Below the pieces are notes generated by a model. That model ran no database searches. It saw nothing but the letters and a program-made list of their open reading frames with translations, and had not been told where the DNA came from. The position numbers were made by a program, and so were the translations under genes. A stretch of DNA of 64,000 nucleotides from Bacteroidota bacterium. GTDB lineage: Bacteria > Bacteroidota > Ignavibacteria > Ignavibacteriales > Ignavibacteriaceae. Positions within the stretch are counted from its first letter, which is position 1. Each line of letters begins with the position of its first letter. Below, piece by piece: positions 50,622 through 57,440 of the stretch. The DNA lies in the NCBI GenBank assembly GCA_020161395.1, contig JAIUOE010000001.1, forward strand, positions 1-64,000, written 5' to 3'.

Positions 50622-51404
50622 TCAATAAGAACAACTTTTTTTCAATTCCCTGACCAGTCCGAGAGTCGCATCCGGTCCAGCCAATCCTAACGAACGAATA
50701 ATTGCACTTCCAACGATTACTCCGTCACAATAAGGAATAACCTGTTTCACATTCTCTGGTGACGAGATGCCGAATCCTGTCAGCATTTTATTGTTGTGGA
50801 TCAGCTCCCTTGTTCGTTTTAGTGATGCCAGCTCCTCAGCAGAAAATCCGTTTCTGACACCCGTTGTTCCCGACACACTGACACAGTAAACAAAACCTGC
50901 ACTTCTCCGGTCTATTTCCCCGATTCTTCCGGAAGCAGTCTCCGGAGTTGTGAGAAGTATAGTATCAAGAGGAACTTCCCTCTCCCCAAAGAATGAATCA
51001 TATTCATCGAGAGGAACATCAGGGATAATCAAGCCGTCAGCACCTGCATCTTTCGCATCCCTTAAAAACGAATTCACGCCATAAAAATAAACAGGATTTG
51101 CGTAGCCCATCAGTATCAGGGGTTTATCAGTTCTCGCACGGATCTCCTTCGTAAATCCCAAAACTCTGTCAAGCGTCATCCCATGTTCCAAAACCGCCTG
51201 TGACGACTGTTGAATTACTGATCCGTCAGCAAGCGGGTCGCTGAAGGGAATCCCGATCTCGAGCATATCGGCACCGGCATCAAGTACCCTCAAGGCAAGC
51301 TCAACAAAATCCAACCCGACAGGAAAGCCCGCCGTTAAAAAAACCGAAAGGACTTTCCCGTTCCTGCCGTTTACTTCTTCAATTTTATTTCTAATCTTCG
51401 ACAT
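50622..51404 (-). CDS. trpA: Tryptophan synthase alpha chain
   Basis: A 260-residue (beta/alpha)8 enzyme that cleaves indole-3-glycerol phosphate to indole. Catalytic Glu lies in DMLEIGIPFSDPLADG with Asp in GLIIPDVPLDEY; the VSGTTGVR and GFGISSPENV loops bind phosphate. It is the last gene of the trp operon and is separated from trpB by a 109-bp gap holding the CTCAAGT repeat array. Confidence 0.97.
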   Translation of the reverse strand: MSKIRNKIEEVNGRNGKVLSVFLTAGFPVGLDFVELALRVLDAGADMLEIGIPFSDPLADGSVIQQSSQAVLEHGMTLDRVLGFTKEIRARTDKPLILMGYANPVYFYGVNSFLRDAKDAGADGLIIPDVPLDEYDSFFGEREVPLDTILLTTPETASGRIGEIDRRSAGFVYCVSVSGTTGVRNGFSAEELASLKRTRELIHNNKMLTGFGISSPENVKQVIPYCDGVIVGSAIIRSLGLAGPDATLGLVRELKKSCSY

Positions 51405-51434
51405 CTCATTCCAAATTTAAATAATCAAATATTT

Positions 51435-51513
51435 CTCAGGTCTCTCAAGTACTCAAGTCTCTCAAGTACTCAAGTCTCTCAAGTCTCTCAAGTCTCTCAA
51501 GTACTCAAGTCTC
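51435..51513. repeat. Tandem array of CTCAAGTCT and CTCAAGTA units between trpB and trpA
   Basis: About nine units alternate 9-bp CTCAAGTCT (first degenerate, CTCAGGTCT) and 8-bp CTCAAGTA, with three CTCAAGTCT in a row in the middle. The array runs directly into the trpB stop codon, whose TGA is part of the last TTGAGAGAC unit read on the minus strand. It lies inside the trp transcript. Confidence 0.85.
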
Positions 51514-52704
51514 TCAACCCCTCATAATCGTCTCAAGGTCCTTGTCCCCTCTGCCCGAGACATTCACGACAACAATTTCCCCCTTGTTTGTTTTTGGCAT
51601 CAAATAATCAAGAGATGCAATTGCATGTGCCGATTCCAGAGCGGGTATAATTCCTTCGAGCTTTGCCAGCAACCCGGTGGCAGAGAGTGCTTCGTTATCG
51701 GTAACCGAATAGTATTCTACCCGTTCCATGTCCTTCAGGAAACTGTGTTCGGGTCCTACACCCGGGTAGTCGAGTCCTGCTGAAATGGAGTGTACTTCCG
51801 CCACCTGTCCGTTTTTGTCCTGCAACAAATATGTAAGCATCCCCTGAAACACACCTGCCTGTCCGAGAGTAAGGGATGCACAATGTTTATCTGTGTCAAT
51901 TCCGTATCCGGCAGCCTCCACACCAATCAGGTTCACCCCCTTGTTATTGATGAAAGGATGAAACATACCGATGGCATTGCTCCCTCCGCCAACACAGGCG
52001 ACAATGTAGTCAGGCAGTTTTCGTTCGATACCATATATTTGTTCTTTCGTTTCCTTCCCTATGACCGATTGAAAATCGCGAACAATCATCGGATAAGGGT
52101 GGGGACCCACAACTGAACCGATTATATAATGAGTATCCTTCACATTGGTTACCCAGTCACGGATTGCTTCGTTGGTCGCATCCTTAAGTGTCCGGCTTCC
52201 AGATGTTACTGGCACCACTTCAGCACCGAGAAGTTTCATTCTGAAAACATTTGGTTTTTGCCGGGCAACATCAACTTCACCCATGTAAACCACACATTTA
52301 AGCCCGAATTTAGCACAGACAGTTGCAACTGCCACCCCGTGCTGACCCGCACCAGTCTCAGCAATTATCCTCTTTTTCCCGAGTTTTTGTGCAAGCAACA
52401 CCTGACCGAGTGCGTTGTTTATTTTGTGGGCTCCTGTGTGGTTCAGGTCTTCCCTTTTCAGATAAATTTTTGCTTTCCCGTAGTGATCTGTCAGCCTCTC
52501 CGCGTATGTAAGTGGAGTGGGTCTCGAATTGTATGTCCTTTCAAGATCGATGAACTCTGCAATAAAAGTGGTGTCGTCCTTCAACCTGTTATAAACATCC
52601 TCAAGCTCAAGCAGTGCGGAAGTAAGAGTTTCAGGCACAAATTTTCCGCCGTACTTGCCAAATTTTCCTTTAATATCGGGATAATCATAAATCATATTTG
52701 TCAT
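51514..52704 (-). CDS. trpB: Tryptophan synthase beta chain
   Basis: A 396-residue PLP enzyme that joins indole to serine. The PLP Lys lies in [13 protein letters not shown], with ETGAGQHG following, the phosphate loop [10 protein letters not shown], and GRGDKD at the C-terminus. It is of the ordinary TrpB1 length. Its ATG shares one base with the trpF stop (TAATG), indicating translational coupling. The C-terminal codons abut the repeat array. Confidence 0.97.
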
Positions 52705-53318
52705 TATCGTAAATTCTTTCTGTATAACAGTTCAAAAAAATCGTTTACTTGTCGCGGATCCTTTTTACCCGGAGAAAGCTCAAGCGAAGAAGAGAGATCA
52801 ACTGCAAACGGTTCCAGTTCATTCACAGCTTCTTCGATGTTGTCAATTGAAATCCCGCCCGAGAGAAAATACTTCCCGCTAAATTCCCGCGGGATTATTC
52901 CCCAGTTGAATTTCCTGCCGGTACCGCCGTACTCCCTTTCTGAAAATGAATCAAAAAGTGGGATTGCAGGTTCATAATCGCGGACCATGTCAAAATCGAA
53001 CCCTTCTCTCACCCGGAATGCTTTTATCTTATTTACCTTTATTCGCTCCAGTAATGAGGGTTGCTCGTCTCCGTGAAGCTGTACTGTGTCAATCCCGGCA
53101 ATCGAAGCTGTTTCGTTGATTATCTCCGCATTGCAGTTCACAAAAACCCCTGCTTTTCTTGTTGTTGCAGGCAATCGTTTAACTATTTCTGCTGCCTTCT
53201 CCGGAGAAATATATCTTTTACTTTTTTCGTAAAATATAAACCCCAGAATGTCAGCTCCTGCATCTGCACAAAGCAAGGCATCTTCGGGATTTGTTATTCC
53301 ACAGACTTTAACAATCAT
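52704..53318 (-). CDS. trpF: Phosphoribosylanthranilate isomerase
   Basis: A 204-residue TIM-barrel enzyme carrying out the Amadori rearrangement. Catalytic Cys lies in KVCGIT near residue 5 and the catalytic Asp in LHGDEQ-type and VDLSSSLE regions near the C-terminus; FVNCNAEII and LSGGIS are also typical. The ATG at 53318 was chosen because it forms ATGA with the trpC stop; an ATG at 53330 would add MVQK. It is fused to neither TrpC nor TrpB. Confidence 0.94.
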
Positions 53319-54103
53319 CTTCTGCACCATGATTTCATCTCATTAAGGCTTTCTGCAATCGAATTGCTCCTCATAAAGTGTTCTCCCGCGAGGATCGCAT
53401 CACAGCCTGAATTCCTGATCATTTTAATATCATCTGCGCTGTTAATTCCGCTCTCGGAGACAAGCAGGATATCATCAGGAATCAGTTTTCTGATTTTTTC
53501 TGTCACTTTCAGATCTACCTTAAACGATTCAAGGTCTCTGTTGTTTACTCCAACGAGCGGGTGAATGGCAGGGTCAATTTTGTCGAGTTGTTTCGCAGAA
53601 TGAAGTTCGAGCAGCACTTCCAGCCCCATGGATTGAGCGGTCAGAGTCAGTTTTCTGACTTCCGTTTTACTCAGGGCTTCACAGATTAACAGAATTGCAT
53701 CGGCACCGTTCTCCTTTGCCTGAAGAATTTGAATCTCATCAATAATAAAATCTTTGCGGAGAAGTGGTTTTGTTTTTATCCGGGCAATATCAGCAAGATA
53801 TTTTATGCTGCCCTGGAAAAACTTCTCATCTGTGAGTATGGAAATGGCATCTGCCCCGTTCGCAAGATAGGCTTTCCCGATCGCAAGATGATCAAAATCT
53901 TCATTAATCACTCCTTTTGAAGGACTTGCCTTTTTTATTTCTGCAATTATTGAGATATCGTTTGTGTTTTTTATCGTTTCAATCAAACTAATTGATGGTT
54001 TGTAGAAGAGATCGAGTTCATCATATTCTCTTACTCTTACCTCCTTTTTCAGGAGTGCAATTTCATCTCTTTTTACGGCTATTATTTTCTCGAGAATGTT
54101 CAT
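53315..54103 (-). CDS. trpC: Indole-3-glycerol phosphate synthase
   Basis: A 262-residue TIM-barrel enzyme that closes the indole ring. IAEIKKASPSKGVI carries the catalytic Lys, LRKDFIID the second Lys, and GVNNRDLESFKV and VSESGINSADD the phosphate-binding region. It overlaps trpF by 4 bases and starts at the base where trpD ends. Stand-alone, not fused to TrpF as in enterobacteria. Confidence 0.96.
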   Translation of the reverse strand: MNILEKIIAVKRDEIALLKKEVRVREYDELDLFYKPSISLIETIKNTNDISIIAEIKKASPSKGVINEDFDHLAIGKAYLANGADAISILTDEKFFQGSIKYLADIARIKTKPLLRKDFIIDEIQILQAKENGADAILLICEALSKTEVRKLTLTAQSMGLEVLLELHSAKQLDKIDPAIHPLVGVNNRDLESFKVDLKVTEKIRKLIPDDILLVSESGINSADDIKMIRNSGCDAILAGEHFMRSNSIAESLNEMKSWCRR

Positions 54104-55119
54104 CAGAGTGACTCCCCGAATTTCCGCAACTCTTCCATTTTTTGAAAGGCTTTTCCGGTCAGAATCGAATCTTCCGCAATTTCAAGACAGGTTTTTATCT
54201 CATCCGATACACCGGCACAGTAAAGCGCAAGAGCCGAGTTTGCAGCAACAACAAAAAACTTACCGTCCCTCTCGGGCTTCCTGAGGAGATTAAATATCAG
54301 TTTTGCGTTGTGTTCGGGTGAATCACCGAGCAGTTCCTCAATTCTCACAGCAGGATAACCCAACCCCTCGGCTGTTAGTTCATATTCTTTGACACCCGAA
54401 TCTTTCCTGTATTCGTAAACCAAAGTTGGCTCATCAAGAGTGATTTCATCCCGCCTGTCACCGGTACAAATAAAGCAAACTCTTTCCATTTCGAGGTAAC
54501 CAGCAGCTTCAGCCATGAGAGCCGCAGACTTGTTATTGTAAACACCGATCAACTGTTTTTTCGTACCTGCAGGATTGGTAAGTGGTCCCAGCAGATTGAA
54601 AGCCGTTTTCATTCCGAGTTCCTTGCGAACCAGTGCTGCATATTTCATGGCCGGATGATAGTGCGGGGCAAAAAGAAACCCGATACCGATTTCATTCAAA
54701 GCCTGTTTTGTTTGTTCCGGTGTCAGGTCAATCTTTATACCGAGTTCGCTAAGGACATCTGCACTTCCTGATCTGCTCGAAATTGATTTGTTACCATGCT
54801 TTGCCACACCGATTCCGGCGCCCGCAACAACAAATGCAGCAGCAGTGGAAATATTGAATGTCCCCGAGTCGTCTCCTCCCGTGCCGCAGACATCTATCAA
54901 ATCTGTTCTACCTGTTTCAACCTTTACGCTCTTGCCCCGCATTGCCTTTGCGAATCCCGCGATTTCAGAGGCAGTTTCGCCCTTGCCTTTAAGAGCAATC
55001 AGAAGTGCTGCGAGTTGTGAGTTGTTCACTTCGCCCGACATAATGGTATCCATCACGAAGAAGGCTTCGTCAAATGAGAGGTGTTCCCTCTCAAGCATTT
55101 TTTCAATATATGTTTTCAT
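54103..55119 (-). CDS. trpD: Anthranilate phosphoribosyltransferase
   Basis: A 338-residue enzyme that transfers phosphoribosyl to anthranilate. The GTGGDDSGTFNIST phosphate loop and KHGNKSISSRSGSADVLSELG are the family signatures, and GPLTNPA is intact. Its start overlaps the trpG stop by 4 bases. It is not fused to TrpG. Confidence 0.97.
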   Translation of the reverse strand: MKTYIEKMLEREHLSFDEAFFVMDTIMSGEVNNSQLAALLIALKGKGETASEIAGFAKAMRGKSVKVETGRTDLIDVCGTGGDDSGTFNISTAAAFVVAGAGIGVAKHGNKSISSRSGSADVLSELGIKIDLTPEQTKQALNEIGIGFLFAPHYHPAMKYAALVRKELGMKTAFNLLGPLTNPAGTKKQLIGVYNNKSAALMAEAAGYLEMERVCFICTGDRRDEITLDEPTLVYEYRKDSGVKEYELTAEGLGYPAVRIEELLGDSPEHNAKLIFNLLRKPERDGKFFVVAANSALALYCAGVSDEIKTCLEIAEDSILTGKAFQKMEELRKFGESL

Positions 55120-55685
55120 CTTGCATCTATCCAGTTTTTAAGCAGTTTTTCGCCGGCAAGTGTAAGTATCGATTCAGGGTGGAATTGAATCCCCTCGATC
55201 GGATATTCCCTGTGCCGTACACCCATGATAATGCCATCTTCTGAAGTGGCGGTCACTTCCAGATCGGCACCGAGCGATTTTCTGTCAACAATCAACGAAT
55301 GATATCTTGTGGCTGTGAACCCCTGCTCAACTCCGGCGAATATCCCTTTCCCGTCGTGTGCTATCTGTGAAGTTTTTCCATGCATAAGAGCGGGGGCGTG
55401 CACCACTTCACTACCAAAGGAAATTCCGATTGCCTGATGTCCAAGACAGACACCGAGAACGGGGATCGTTTTCCCAAGTTCCGATATTACCACCGGAGAA
55501 ACCCCCGAATCTTCAGGTCTGCCCGGTCCCGGGGAAATCAAAATCCTGTCGGGATTCATCCCGCGAATCTCTTCAACTGTGGTCTCATCATTTCTTTTTA
55601 TCACAATGTTATCTGTAAACCTGCCGACAAGCTGAACCAGATTATATGTGAACGAATCGTAATTGTCAATCACCAATATTTTCAT
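55116..55685 (-). CDS. trpG: Anthranilate synthase glutaminase subunit
   Basis: A 189-residue class I glutamine amidotransferase. IDNYDSFTYNLVQ begins the fold; the nucleophile is in GVCLGHQAIG and the His/Glu pair in GIQFHPESIL. It supplies ammonia to TrpE and may also serve PabB if one exists elsewhere. It overlaps trpE by 20 bases. Its active-site motifs contrast with the HisH-like pseudoenzyme at 20342. Confidence 0.96.
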   Translation of the reverse strand: MKILVIDNYDSFTYNLVQLVGRFTDNIVIKRNDETTVEEIRGMNPDRILISPGPGRPEDSGVSPVVISELGKTIPVLGVCLGHQAIGISFGSEVVHAPALMHGKTSQIAHDGKGIFAGVEQGFTATRYHSLIVDRKSLGADLEVTATSEDGIIMGVRHREYPIEGIQFHPESILTLAGEKLLKNWIDAR

Positions 55686-57141
55686 CTATCACCTCTGCAT
55701 GTTCCAATGCGTTGCGTAAAACTGCCGATTTGTTTTTTATTTCTTTTGCCTCCAGCCTCGGTTGACTGTCAGCTACTATTCCTGCACCCGCCTGCCAGTG
55801 AATTTTTTGATCCTTCGCAAAGAGCGTCCTGATTGCGATGCAAACATCAAGATTCCCCGAGAAGTCGATGTATCCTACGGCTCCGGCATAAATATTTCTC
55901 CGAAGCTTTTCATATCCTGAAATCAGTTCCATTGCCCTGATCTTCGGTGCACCCGTTACTGTTCCCGCAGGAAAACATGATTTCAGGGCGTCGATGCAAT
56001 CCTTGTCGCTTCTCAACTTTCCCTGAACCTTCGAAACTATGTGCATAACATGCGAAAAACGGTGTATTTTCATTTTTTCCGTGACTTCCACGGAACCATA
56101 TTCGGCAACCCGCCCTACATCATTTCGTCCGAGATCAACCAGCATTACATGTTCGGCTATCTCCTTTGGGTCGTTCATCAGGTCTTCTTCGAGTTTTTTA
56201 TCGGCTTCCGGAGTTGCACCCCGCTTCCTTGTTCCGGCTATCGGCATCACTTCCACAAATCCGTCTTTCACTTTTACAAGATTTTCAGGTGAAGTACCGA
56301 TGATAGTGAGTCCATTTTCAAATTCGAGAAAATACATGTAGGGTGAAGGATTGATTATCCTTAACGCCCTGTAAACATTGAACAAATCACCTTCATACCC
56401 GGCAGTGAATCTCTTTGAAAGGACTATCTGGAAGACATCCCCGTTTATAATATTCTGTTTGCTCGCCTCAACCAGTTCACAAAATACTTCATCACTCAGG
56501 CTCTCTTCCACATTCCGGTCAAATGTAAAATCCGACTCAAATGAAAGAGGCACAGAAAGGGTTTTCCTCAATTCCCGGATTTTCTTCTTTGCGTCTGCAT
56601 ACAGAACTTCAAAGGCATCCCCTTTTTTGATTTCCACATTTGTGATTATAATAAGCTGGTGTTTATAATGATCAAATGCCAGAACTGTATCATAAACCCC
56701 GAGGATCGAGTCGCAGATGTCATCCTCAACCGTTTCAAATTTCAACCTGTTCTCGATCAATGCGATATTTTCATAAGCGAGATAACCCACCGTCCCTCCA
56801 GTAAAAGAAGGAAGCTCCTCAAGAGCAGGGTGATTCCTTGTGTGGAGTTCGTCCTTCAGGTAATCGAAAATGTTTTGATTCCTGGTTTCATCGAGACCTC
56901 CCTTCGATATCGTAAGCGACATCCCTTTGTTTGAGATTGTCTTCAGCGGGTCAATCCCGATAAAAGAATACCTTCCCAGACTCTCTTTTCCCTCAACAGT
57001 CTCGAGAAGAAAACTCTGTTTCCCTGCTTTTCGTAATTTCAGATAAGCCATCACAGGCGTAAACAAATCCGCTGTTATTTTCTCATAAACAGGAATGTAG
57101 TTGTAGTTTTCCGACAGACTTGCAAATAGTTCAAAATTCAT
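55666..57141 (-). CDS. trpE: Anthranilate synthase component I
   Basis: A 491-residue chorismate-utilising enzyme making anthranilate. The N-terminal domain has the LLET feedback motif near residue 45 (LLES in E. coli), suggesting Trp inhibition is kept. The catalytic domain has VMPIAGTRKRG, DLGRNDVGRV and CFPAGTVTGAPKIRAMELI. It is the first structural gene of the operon, 115 bases after the leader peptide stop, with the terminator between. Confidence 0.97.
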   Translation of the reverse strand: MNFELFASLSENYNYIPVYEKITADLFTPVMAYLKLRKAGKQSFLLETVEGKESLGRYSFIGIDPLKTISNKGMSLTISKGGLDETRNQNIFDYLKDELHTRNHPALEELPSFTGGTVGYLAYENIALIENRLKFETVEDDICDSILGVYDTVLAFDHYKHQLIIITNVEIKKGDAFEVLYADAKKKIRELRKTLSVPLSFESDFTFDRNVEESLSDEVFCELVEASKQNIINGDVFQIVLSKRFTAGYEGDLFNVYRALRIINPSPYMYFLEFENGLTIIGTSPENLVKVKDGFVEVMPIAGTRKRGATPEADKKLEEDLMNDPKEIAEHVMLVDLGRNDVGRVAEYGSVEVTEKMKIHRFSHVMHIVSKVQGKLRSDKDCIDALKSCFPAGTVTGAPKIRAMELISGYEKLRRNIYAGAVGYIDFSGNLDVCIAIRTLFAKDQKIHWQAGAGIVADSQPRLEAKEIKNKSAVLRNALEHAEVIDENIGD

Positions 57142-57171: not shown

Positions 57172-57206
57172 AAAAAAAGCCCTTCTCGGTGAAAGAAGGG
57201 CTTTTT
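57172..57206 (-). terminator. trp attenuator terminator
   Basis: Read on the minus strand: AAAAAGCCCTTCT, loop TTCACCG, AGAAGGGCTTTTTTT. Perfect 10-bp stem with a T-run, ending about 30 bases before the trpE start. It fits the attenuator downstream of the Trp-rich leader peptide. Confidence 0.92.
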
Positions 57207-57300
57207 AATTGTTTATCCCTTTACGCAGGGATCAAAAAAGACATATCACCGGGTACTCATTGGAAGAGGTGCCACCACCACCAATTTGCCCGGACGGCTT
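57207..57300 (-). promoter_or_regulatory. trpL: trp attenuator control structures
   Basis: CCGGG (57289-57293) and ATTGG (57281-57285), around the start of the Trp codons, are complementary to CCCGG (57249-57253) and CCAAT (57259-57263) after them, giving a 1:2 hairpin that brackets the Trp codons. A stalled ribosome would break it. CGGTGA (57246-57251) matches TCACCG in the terminator loop, and AAGGG (about 57217-57221) matches CCCTT of its 5' arm. Which of these two acts as the antiterminator is not clear from sequence alone. Confidence 0.6.
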
Positions 57301-57343
57301 TTGCAACTGTTGATACGCTTTTTTCTGTATTTTTTAAATTCAT
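57257..57343 (-). CDS. trpL: trp operon leader peptide with four Trp codons
   Basis: A 28-codon frame, ATG at 57343 to TGA at 57257, on the same strand as and upstream of trpE. It contains four consecutive TGG codons (57272-57283) in NWWWWHLFQ, five codons before the stop. Followed by complementary segments and a rho-independent terminator, it has all parts of ribosome-mediated attenuation: Trp shortage stalls the ribosome on the TGG run and lets RNA polymerase through. No strong ribosome binding site is visible, as is usual in this phylum. Confidence 0.9.
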   Translation of the reverse strand: MNLKNTEKSVSTVAKAVRANWWWWHLFQ

Positions 57344-57440
57344 GGAACCAAGATAATCTATTTTGACTATTTGATGCAAGTTCATTTTATTTTGACCTCA
57401 CAAAATTGCAGACTGTAATTACACGCTGTTATTCATTAAA

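Follow-up and report, generated by a model that had tools for sequence, protein, structure and literature searches.

The trp operon of this Ignavibacteriaceae genome is very probably controlled by a ribosome-mediated transcription attenuator, as judged from sequence comparison and predicted folds. Upstream of trpE the window (the whole stretch of DNA analysed, 64,000 nucleotides) carries a short gene with Trp codons followed by a terminator, an arrangement in which stalled ribosomes would probably switch the operon on. The anatomy of this leader, its conservation among relatives and its co-varying pairings were observed directly. The attenuator is genuine and present throughout the order; its kind is known but the lineage is new, and it differs from the known kind in an unusual way of disarming the terminator. 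Ribosome-mediated trp attenuation had been proposed in an initial annotation of the sequence, and the conservation and co-varying pairings described below argue strongly for it.

The features are collected in Table 1. The leader of 28 codons with four tandem TGG codons was found as initially annotated. Such a run was expected 0.02 times in the shuffled window and observed once, and the whole genome held 6 matches in 4.07 Mb, two of them overlapping. The biosynthetic operon is thus preceded by a short ORF that repeats the codon for its end product, as would be expected of an amino-acid attenuator. Between leader and first gene there is an intrinsic terminator, a 14-bp hairpin with a 5-nt loop whose stem includes most of the T run. 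It had been annotated as perfect; the hairpin is there, but its top pair is G-U rather than Watson-Crick. The region 57343-57165 folded with a minimum free energy (MFE) of -58.9 kcal/mol (z -4.74), and 0/200 shuffles were as good. In the downstream operon trpG was called with only a trpG/pabA subfamily model from NCBIfam.

Table 1. Features of the trp leader region and operon, in window positions
Feature	Position	Strand	Details and basis
trp operon under presumed leader control: trpE, trpG, trpD, trpC, trpF, trpB, trpA	50622-57141	-	NCBIfam cut-offs
trpE, first gene past the leader	57141-55666	-	
Putative promoter	57348-57379	-	TTGCAT (57379-57374), 18-nt spacer, TATCTTGG (57355-57348); sequence
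Leader ORF, 28 sense codons, MNLKNTEKSVSTVAKAVRANWWWWHLFQ	57343-57257	-	ATG 57343-57341, stop TGA 57259-57257; sequence, kept in relatives
Four tandem TGG codons, TGGTGGTGGTGG (presumed stall site)	57283-57272	-	Sequence, shuffle expectation
Segment 1	57281-57293	-	CCGGG 57293-57289, AUUGG 57285-57281; folding, coverage by stalled ribosome assumed
Segment 2	57246-57263	-	CCAAU 57263-57259, CCCGG 57253-57249, CGGUGA 57251-57246; folding
Inner antiterminator	57201-57240	-	CUUUUU 57240-57235 with AAAAAG 57206-57201, around hairpin 57232-57215; MFE of stalled-ribosome prefix
Intrinsic terminator	57172-57206	-	Arms 57206-57193 and 57187-57174, loop 57192-57188, T run to 57172; folding

Conservation of the leader was assessed in 144 trpE-bearing loci, which gave 120 distinct upstream regions. 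A region was scored as positive when it held an ATG-initiated ORF, 18-45 codons long, in which two Trp codons lay no more than 6 residues apart, and a terminator came after this ORF. Trp leader and terminator were found together in 99/120 real upstreams as compared to 0, 1, 0, 1 and 0 of 120 in five dinucleotide-shuffled rounds. All 83 distinct upstream regions of the order type (Ignavibacteriales-like) carried both, which strongly supports a conserved ribosome-mediated attenuator. The initial annotation had pointed to homologous leaders without Trp codons or without the terminator as the evidence against it, and none occurred in this set. Genomes of the same genus, family or order contributed 58 of the 83 regions and 25 were assigned by TrpE similarity; the TrpE-similarity sample held 50 loci, mostly from Ignavibacteriales, Ignavibacteria(e), Ignavibacteriaceae, Melioribacteraceae, Bacteroidetes or Chlorobiota, and several genomes of the order with no close trpE lie outside these counts. 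Of the other 37 upstreams, one was the Actinomycetota outlier L143 and 36 belonged to other families in the class; 16 of the 36 qualified. This outlier and 20 regions from other families of the class made up the 21/120 that failed. Ten of the failing upstreams were viewed by eye, and among them L061, L063, L065 and L067 had Trp leaders with hairpins that the filter rejected. The weakest member of the order was L039, with two Trp codons.

Among the 99 leaders the median length was 29 codons, and the longest Trp run was 4 in 22 leaders, 3 in 49, 2 in 21 and 1 in 7. Four consecutive Trp codons, initially described as an extreme stall signal, are thus shared by 22/99 leaders. In L021, L042, L054, L055, L102, L112, L126, L127, L136 and L144 the leader stop lies 160-282 nt ahead of trpE, with extra sequence after the terminator. 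In L042 (genome G001, contig C16) an open frame of 623 residues matched TrpE as three separate pieces, which suggests insertions in the protein.

It is extremely unlikely that the Trp-rich ORF is incidental, with the hairpin ending another transcript or the trpE promoter lying after the hairpin. The hairpin is nearly symmetric, and a simple terminator scan listed it (57206-57174) on the + strand only and not on the - strand, which speaks for this reading. Set against this, leader and terminator occurred together in every order-type upstream and in 0-1/120 shuffled ones, and a scan of the - strand for sigma-70-type promoters listed no site between the terminator and trpE.

The putative promoter of the window ends 4 nt ahead of the leader ATG, so the leader mRNA would be near-leaderless. 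On visual inspection L003, L042 and L044, which belong to the same genus, showed a similar TTGCAT-N18-TATCTTGG-like layout. The -33 box of the window is weak, and the window fails the promoter scan that was used on the 99 leaders. In that scan TTGACA-like and TAnnTTTG-like boxes were present upstream of 66/99 leaders and 9-18/99 shuffled upstreams, and in 62 of those 66 leaders the second box ended 5-13 nt ahead of the ATG. For Flavobacterium psychrophilum, PMC9723704 locates a TAnnTTTG-like box at -12 to -5, and with the spacing given there transcription would start 1-9 nt before the leader ATG. Shine-Dalgarno matches of at least 4/6 preceded 5/99 leaders as compared to 52/99 trpE starts. A perfect TTGACA-N17-TATAAT lies within trpG (window 55669-55641, - strand); it is probably a coincidence, since the codons for IDNYDSFTYN spell it.

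The initial annotation had also described complementary segments bracketing the Trp codons, and these do pair in the fold, CCGGG with CCCGG and AUUGG with CCAAU. Segment 1 adjoins and enters the first Trp codon, so a ribosome stalled there would cover it. Segment 2 flanks the leader stop codon, and its CGGUGA pairs with UCACCG (57192-57187), which covers the terminator loop and a single base of the 3' arm. In the MFE fold of the stalled-ribosome prefix (-17.7 kcal/mol), CUUUUU paired with AAAAAG, with which the 5' arm of the terminator begins at its base. Taken together, these two helices make the antiterminator of the window loop-centred and place it between two topologies, one directed at the 3' arm and one at the 5' arm. 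The helix that captures the terminator in the window has 6 bp and involves mostly the loop, which counts against the preferred explanation. In the same-genus relatives L042 and L044 the hairpin of segments 1 and 2 (1:2 hairpin) was kept and the outer helix had different letters; an automatic search in L042 did not select the CGGUGA helix.

Taking the order as a whole, the segment at the leader stop codon finds its partner in the loop and descending (3') arm of the terminator. In a first shuffle test of the segment-2 region, pairing with loop+3' arm gave a mean z of 2.42 (p<=0.05 in 48/83 leaders) and pairing with the 5' arm, as the textbook topology has it, 0.23 (8/83). The loop had been counted on one side only, and because of this the test was rerun with the loop on both sides. 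Loop+3' arm then reached a mean z of 2.50, with p<=0.05 in 48/83 leaders and 35/83 missing that limit, as compared to a mean z of 0.48 and p<=0.05 in 5/83 for 5' arm+loop. Loop+3' arm outscored 5' arm+loop in 65/83 leaders and the reverse was seen in 18/83. Examples are CCCGGTGAAT with ATTCACCGGG in L025, CTCAGTGA with TCACTGAG in L031 and TAGTGAA with TTCACTA in L005. For the 16 qualifying leaders outside the order but within the class, the first test gave no clear preference (loop+3' arm z 0.43, 5' arm 0.24); with the loop on both sides they leaned to 5' arm+loop, at 1.84 (6/16) versus 0.38 (3/16) for loop+3' arm. The term classical, which the initial annotation had used, therefore fits only in part, the antiterminator strand of the order being directed at the loop and 3' arm and not at the 5' arm.

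The pairings were also evaluated by swapping segments among the 99 leaders. The segment-2 region scored 17.05 with its own loop and upper 3' arm versus 13.6 when permuted (z 12.7; reversed-sequence control z 6.9), and the codons before the Trp run scored 22.7 with the segment-2 region versus 16.4 (z 17.4; control 4.1). Pairing of the segment-2 region with the 5' arm gave z 3.9. The controls were above zero, indicating that relatedness inflates these z values, and the leader's own terminator was among the top 10% of swaps in only 33/99 leaders, with 60/99 for the 1:2 pairing. In an ungapped best-complement search the window yielded a CUUUUUU-type match and some other leaders off-target helices, which is why we judged the pairings by the swap and shuffle controls; the per-column pair counts, from which a score limit left out 17/99 leaders, come from helices chosen for their complementarity and hence are no independent proof. 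Mutually exclusive pairings were backed across relatives. In 85/99 leaders segment 2 starts inside the footprint assumed for a ribosome that has reached the stop codon, and in 42/99 it overlaps the stop. Across much of the family to which the window belongs, the opening codons of the leader pair with its last ones, for example AAAATCACTGGCACATATT with AATATGACCCAGTGATTTT in L018. Segment 1 lies near the start codon in many relatives, upstream of the stalled ribosome, which again counts against the preferred explanation.

We searched the window with Rfam for known regulatory RNAs. Between 57000 and 57500 there were 29 matches at E <=10, all below gathering. The best by E-value was Thr_leader, which overlaps the terminator and was rejected (28.5 bits against a gathering threshold of 55, E 0.0023). 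T-box, TRAP and TrpR are regulators of trp genes elsewhere, and the idea that one of these senses Trp here is almost certainly wrong: Rfam at gathering found no family in the window, hence no T-box, and the genome had no match to the TRAP or TrpR families, in searches whose controls found TRAP in B. subtilis and Trp_repressor in E. coli and B. subtilis. All three were rejected as explanations, as was the terminator of another transcript.

The Bacteroid-trp family (RF01692) had 0 matches in the window and was not among the 29 matches above. It resembles the leader studied here in having a Trp leader ORF with WWW and a terminator before trpE in Bacteroidota, but the window misses the model and its leader, terminator and segment letters differ. 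At gathering RF01692 matched 0/15 scanned trpE loci of the class and 12/24 scanned from other classes of the phylum (1/4 and 11/20). All of the latter belonged to family f41, in which 12/13 scanned loci matched. The other-class loci L274, L277, L278 and L280-L283 had Trp leaders with no RF01692 match at gathering. A table in PMC2864571 places Bacteroid-trp among the cis-regulators of Bacteroidetes, PMC9723704 reports hints that amino-acid operons of Flavobacterium are attenuated through leader peptides, and PMC7366714 mentions short ORFs in Bacteroides reminiscent of attenuation leaders. Together with RF01692, what these sources contain indicates that attenuation in Bacteroidota is not new. 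A literature search covering few subscription journals returned neither trp attenuation in Ignavibacteria nor the topology seen in the order. Trp attenuation now extends to an order in which the Rfam model matched none of the scanned members, with 99 natural variants of the leader.

Two samples of trpE loci from other classes were scored for topology. The first held 30 loci (the ten best-scoring and 20 picked), and Trp leader and terminator were present in 20/30. With half of the scanned other-class loci matching RF01692 as well, the initial view of an independent example in the Bacteroidota/Chlorobi group is not supported. In this sample 5' arm+loop was favoured in 19/20 leaders (z 3.32, 14/20), with loop+3' arm at -0.14 (2/20). 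Nine of the 20 came from family f43; with f43 and L180 removed, the ten others still favoured 5' arm+loop (2.90 versus 0.23). The second sample held 20 further loci, to which stricter and then looser leader criteria were applied. The stricter criteria gave 17 leaders, or 18 with L180, of which 14 favoured loop+3' arm and L280-L283 the reverse; the means with L180 were 2.13 (11/18) for loop+3' arm and 0.50 (3/18) for 5' arm+loop. Under the looser criteria a leader was found in 20/20 loci. Loop+3' arm was then favoured in 12/12 f41 leaders (2.64, 8/12; 5' arm+loop -0.18, 0/12), for example through GTCGTGA with TCACGAC, a pairing of the same kind as in the order, and 5' arm+loop in 7/8 non-f41 loci (2.87, 7/8). 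The scores of f41 and of the other families show that the topology changes within the phylum and that f41 and the order have the unusual one in common, so that two opposite antiterminator topologies serve one operon in one phylum.

Given these scores, we consider it unlikely that the order uses the textbook antiterminator only, with segment 2 pairing as it does in E. coli, to the ascending (5') terminator arm. The CUUUUU helix of the window does reach the base of the 5' arm in the stalled-prefix fold, and E. coli trpL, 19/20 leaders of the first sample (nine of them f43) and 7/8 non-f41 leaders of the second score in this way. Within the order, though, 5' arm+loop stayed near the shuffles (z 0.48, 5/83) while loop+3' arm did not (2.50, 48/83), and in the swap test the 5' arm did no better than the controls.

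The preferred explanation, in which the loop and 3' arm are captured, was assessed by folding the emerging RNA at the point where the polymerase has just completed the partner of segment 2, on the assumption that the ribosome covers 11 nt beyond its A site. When the ribosome stood on the first Trp codon, the antiterminator was likelier than the terminator in 90/99 leaders and its probability exceeded 0.5 in 82/99. When it stood on the stop codon instead, the antiterminator exceeded 0.5 in 9/99. At full length the terminator exceeded 0.5 in 97/99 leaders (stalled) and 99/99 (stop). Since the terminator is favoured at full length, antitermination would have to be a co-transcriptional (kinetic) trap. 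In the proposed mechanism, scarce Trp-tRNA would stall the ribosome on the four Trp codons, where it would cover segment 1. The freed segment 2 would take the terminator loop as it emerges, and in most relatives the descending arm too, and with the terminator captured the RNA polymerase would read on. If the leader were untranslated, segment 1 would pair with segment 2 and the terminator would form. We infer both the translation of the leader and the kinetic, non-equilibrium antitermination; for leaders with segment 1 close to the start codon, its coverage by a following ribosome must be assumed.

A more general model for Ignavibacteriales and RF01692-type leaders has, in our estimate, an even chance of being correct. 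The antiterminator would mimic the ascending arm of the terminator at the leader stop codon, use the loop as a toehold and steal the descending arm. Such a trap would be purely co-transcriptional and would lose at equilibrium. The leader would be translated from an mRNA that is near-leaderless, and for this reason the first leader codons in many relatives would double as the strand that silences the antiterminator. Whether a kinetically winning antiterminator can regulate a biosynthetic operon is testable in this system.

E. coli trpL resembles the leader in its tandem Trp codons and its terminator before trpE, and also forms a 1:2 hairpin. Under the same scoring its segment 2 paired with the 5' arm, CGGGC with GCCCG (15 versus 9.3). 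The target is thus the 5' arm in E. coli and the loop in the order, with the 3' arm added in most relatives. The window also differs from trpL in that segment 2 abuts the stop codon and in how closely the putative promoter precedes the leader ATG. The actinobacterial trp attenuators, as described in PMC1262725, likewise have leader peptides with repeated UGG, a terminator and an antiterminator, but are built on triples gGCC-rGCy-GGCC common to both hairpins and differ in letters and lineage. For peTrpL of Sinorhizobium action in trans is reported in PMC7298713. By analogy the leader peptide or the terminated short RNA might also act in trans here, which we regard as very unlikely; we infer that cells with ample Trp would produce the terminated leader RNA.

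Leaders were also sought ahead of other amino-acid operons. A His-run leader with a terminator preceded hisG in 15/21 loci from relatives and the genome itself, resembling the Trp leader of the window in having a run of the residue and a terminator ahead of the operon. In the genome itself (L201, contig C1, about 646 kb) the His leader MIFENLTNIHHHHHLAHGMCRR and a terminator lie before hisG near locus position 1196. By raw scores, which carry no shuffle control, 5' arm+loop exceeded loop+3' arm in 12/15 His leaders, L184, L200 and L201 being the others, and by the 5' arm alone in only 7/15. The 30 loci from an ilvB search, 15 of which were acetolactate synthase matches over the cut-off, had no leader under the same criteria. 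Tyr/Phe-rich candidates were found in 2/24 prephenate dehydratase loci. In L221 near position 1360 and L222 near 318 (reverse strand positions) a Tyr/Phe-rich ORF is followed by a terminator, making these candidate Phe/Tyr leaders.
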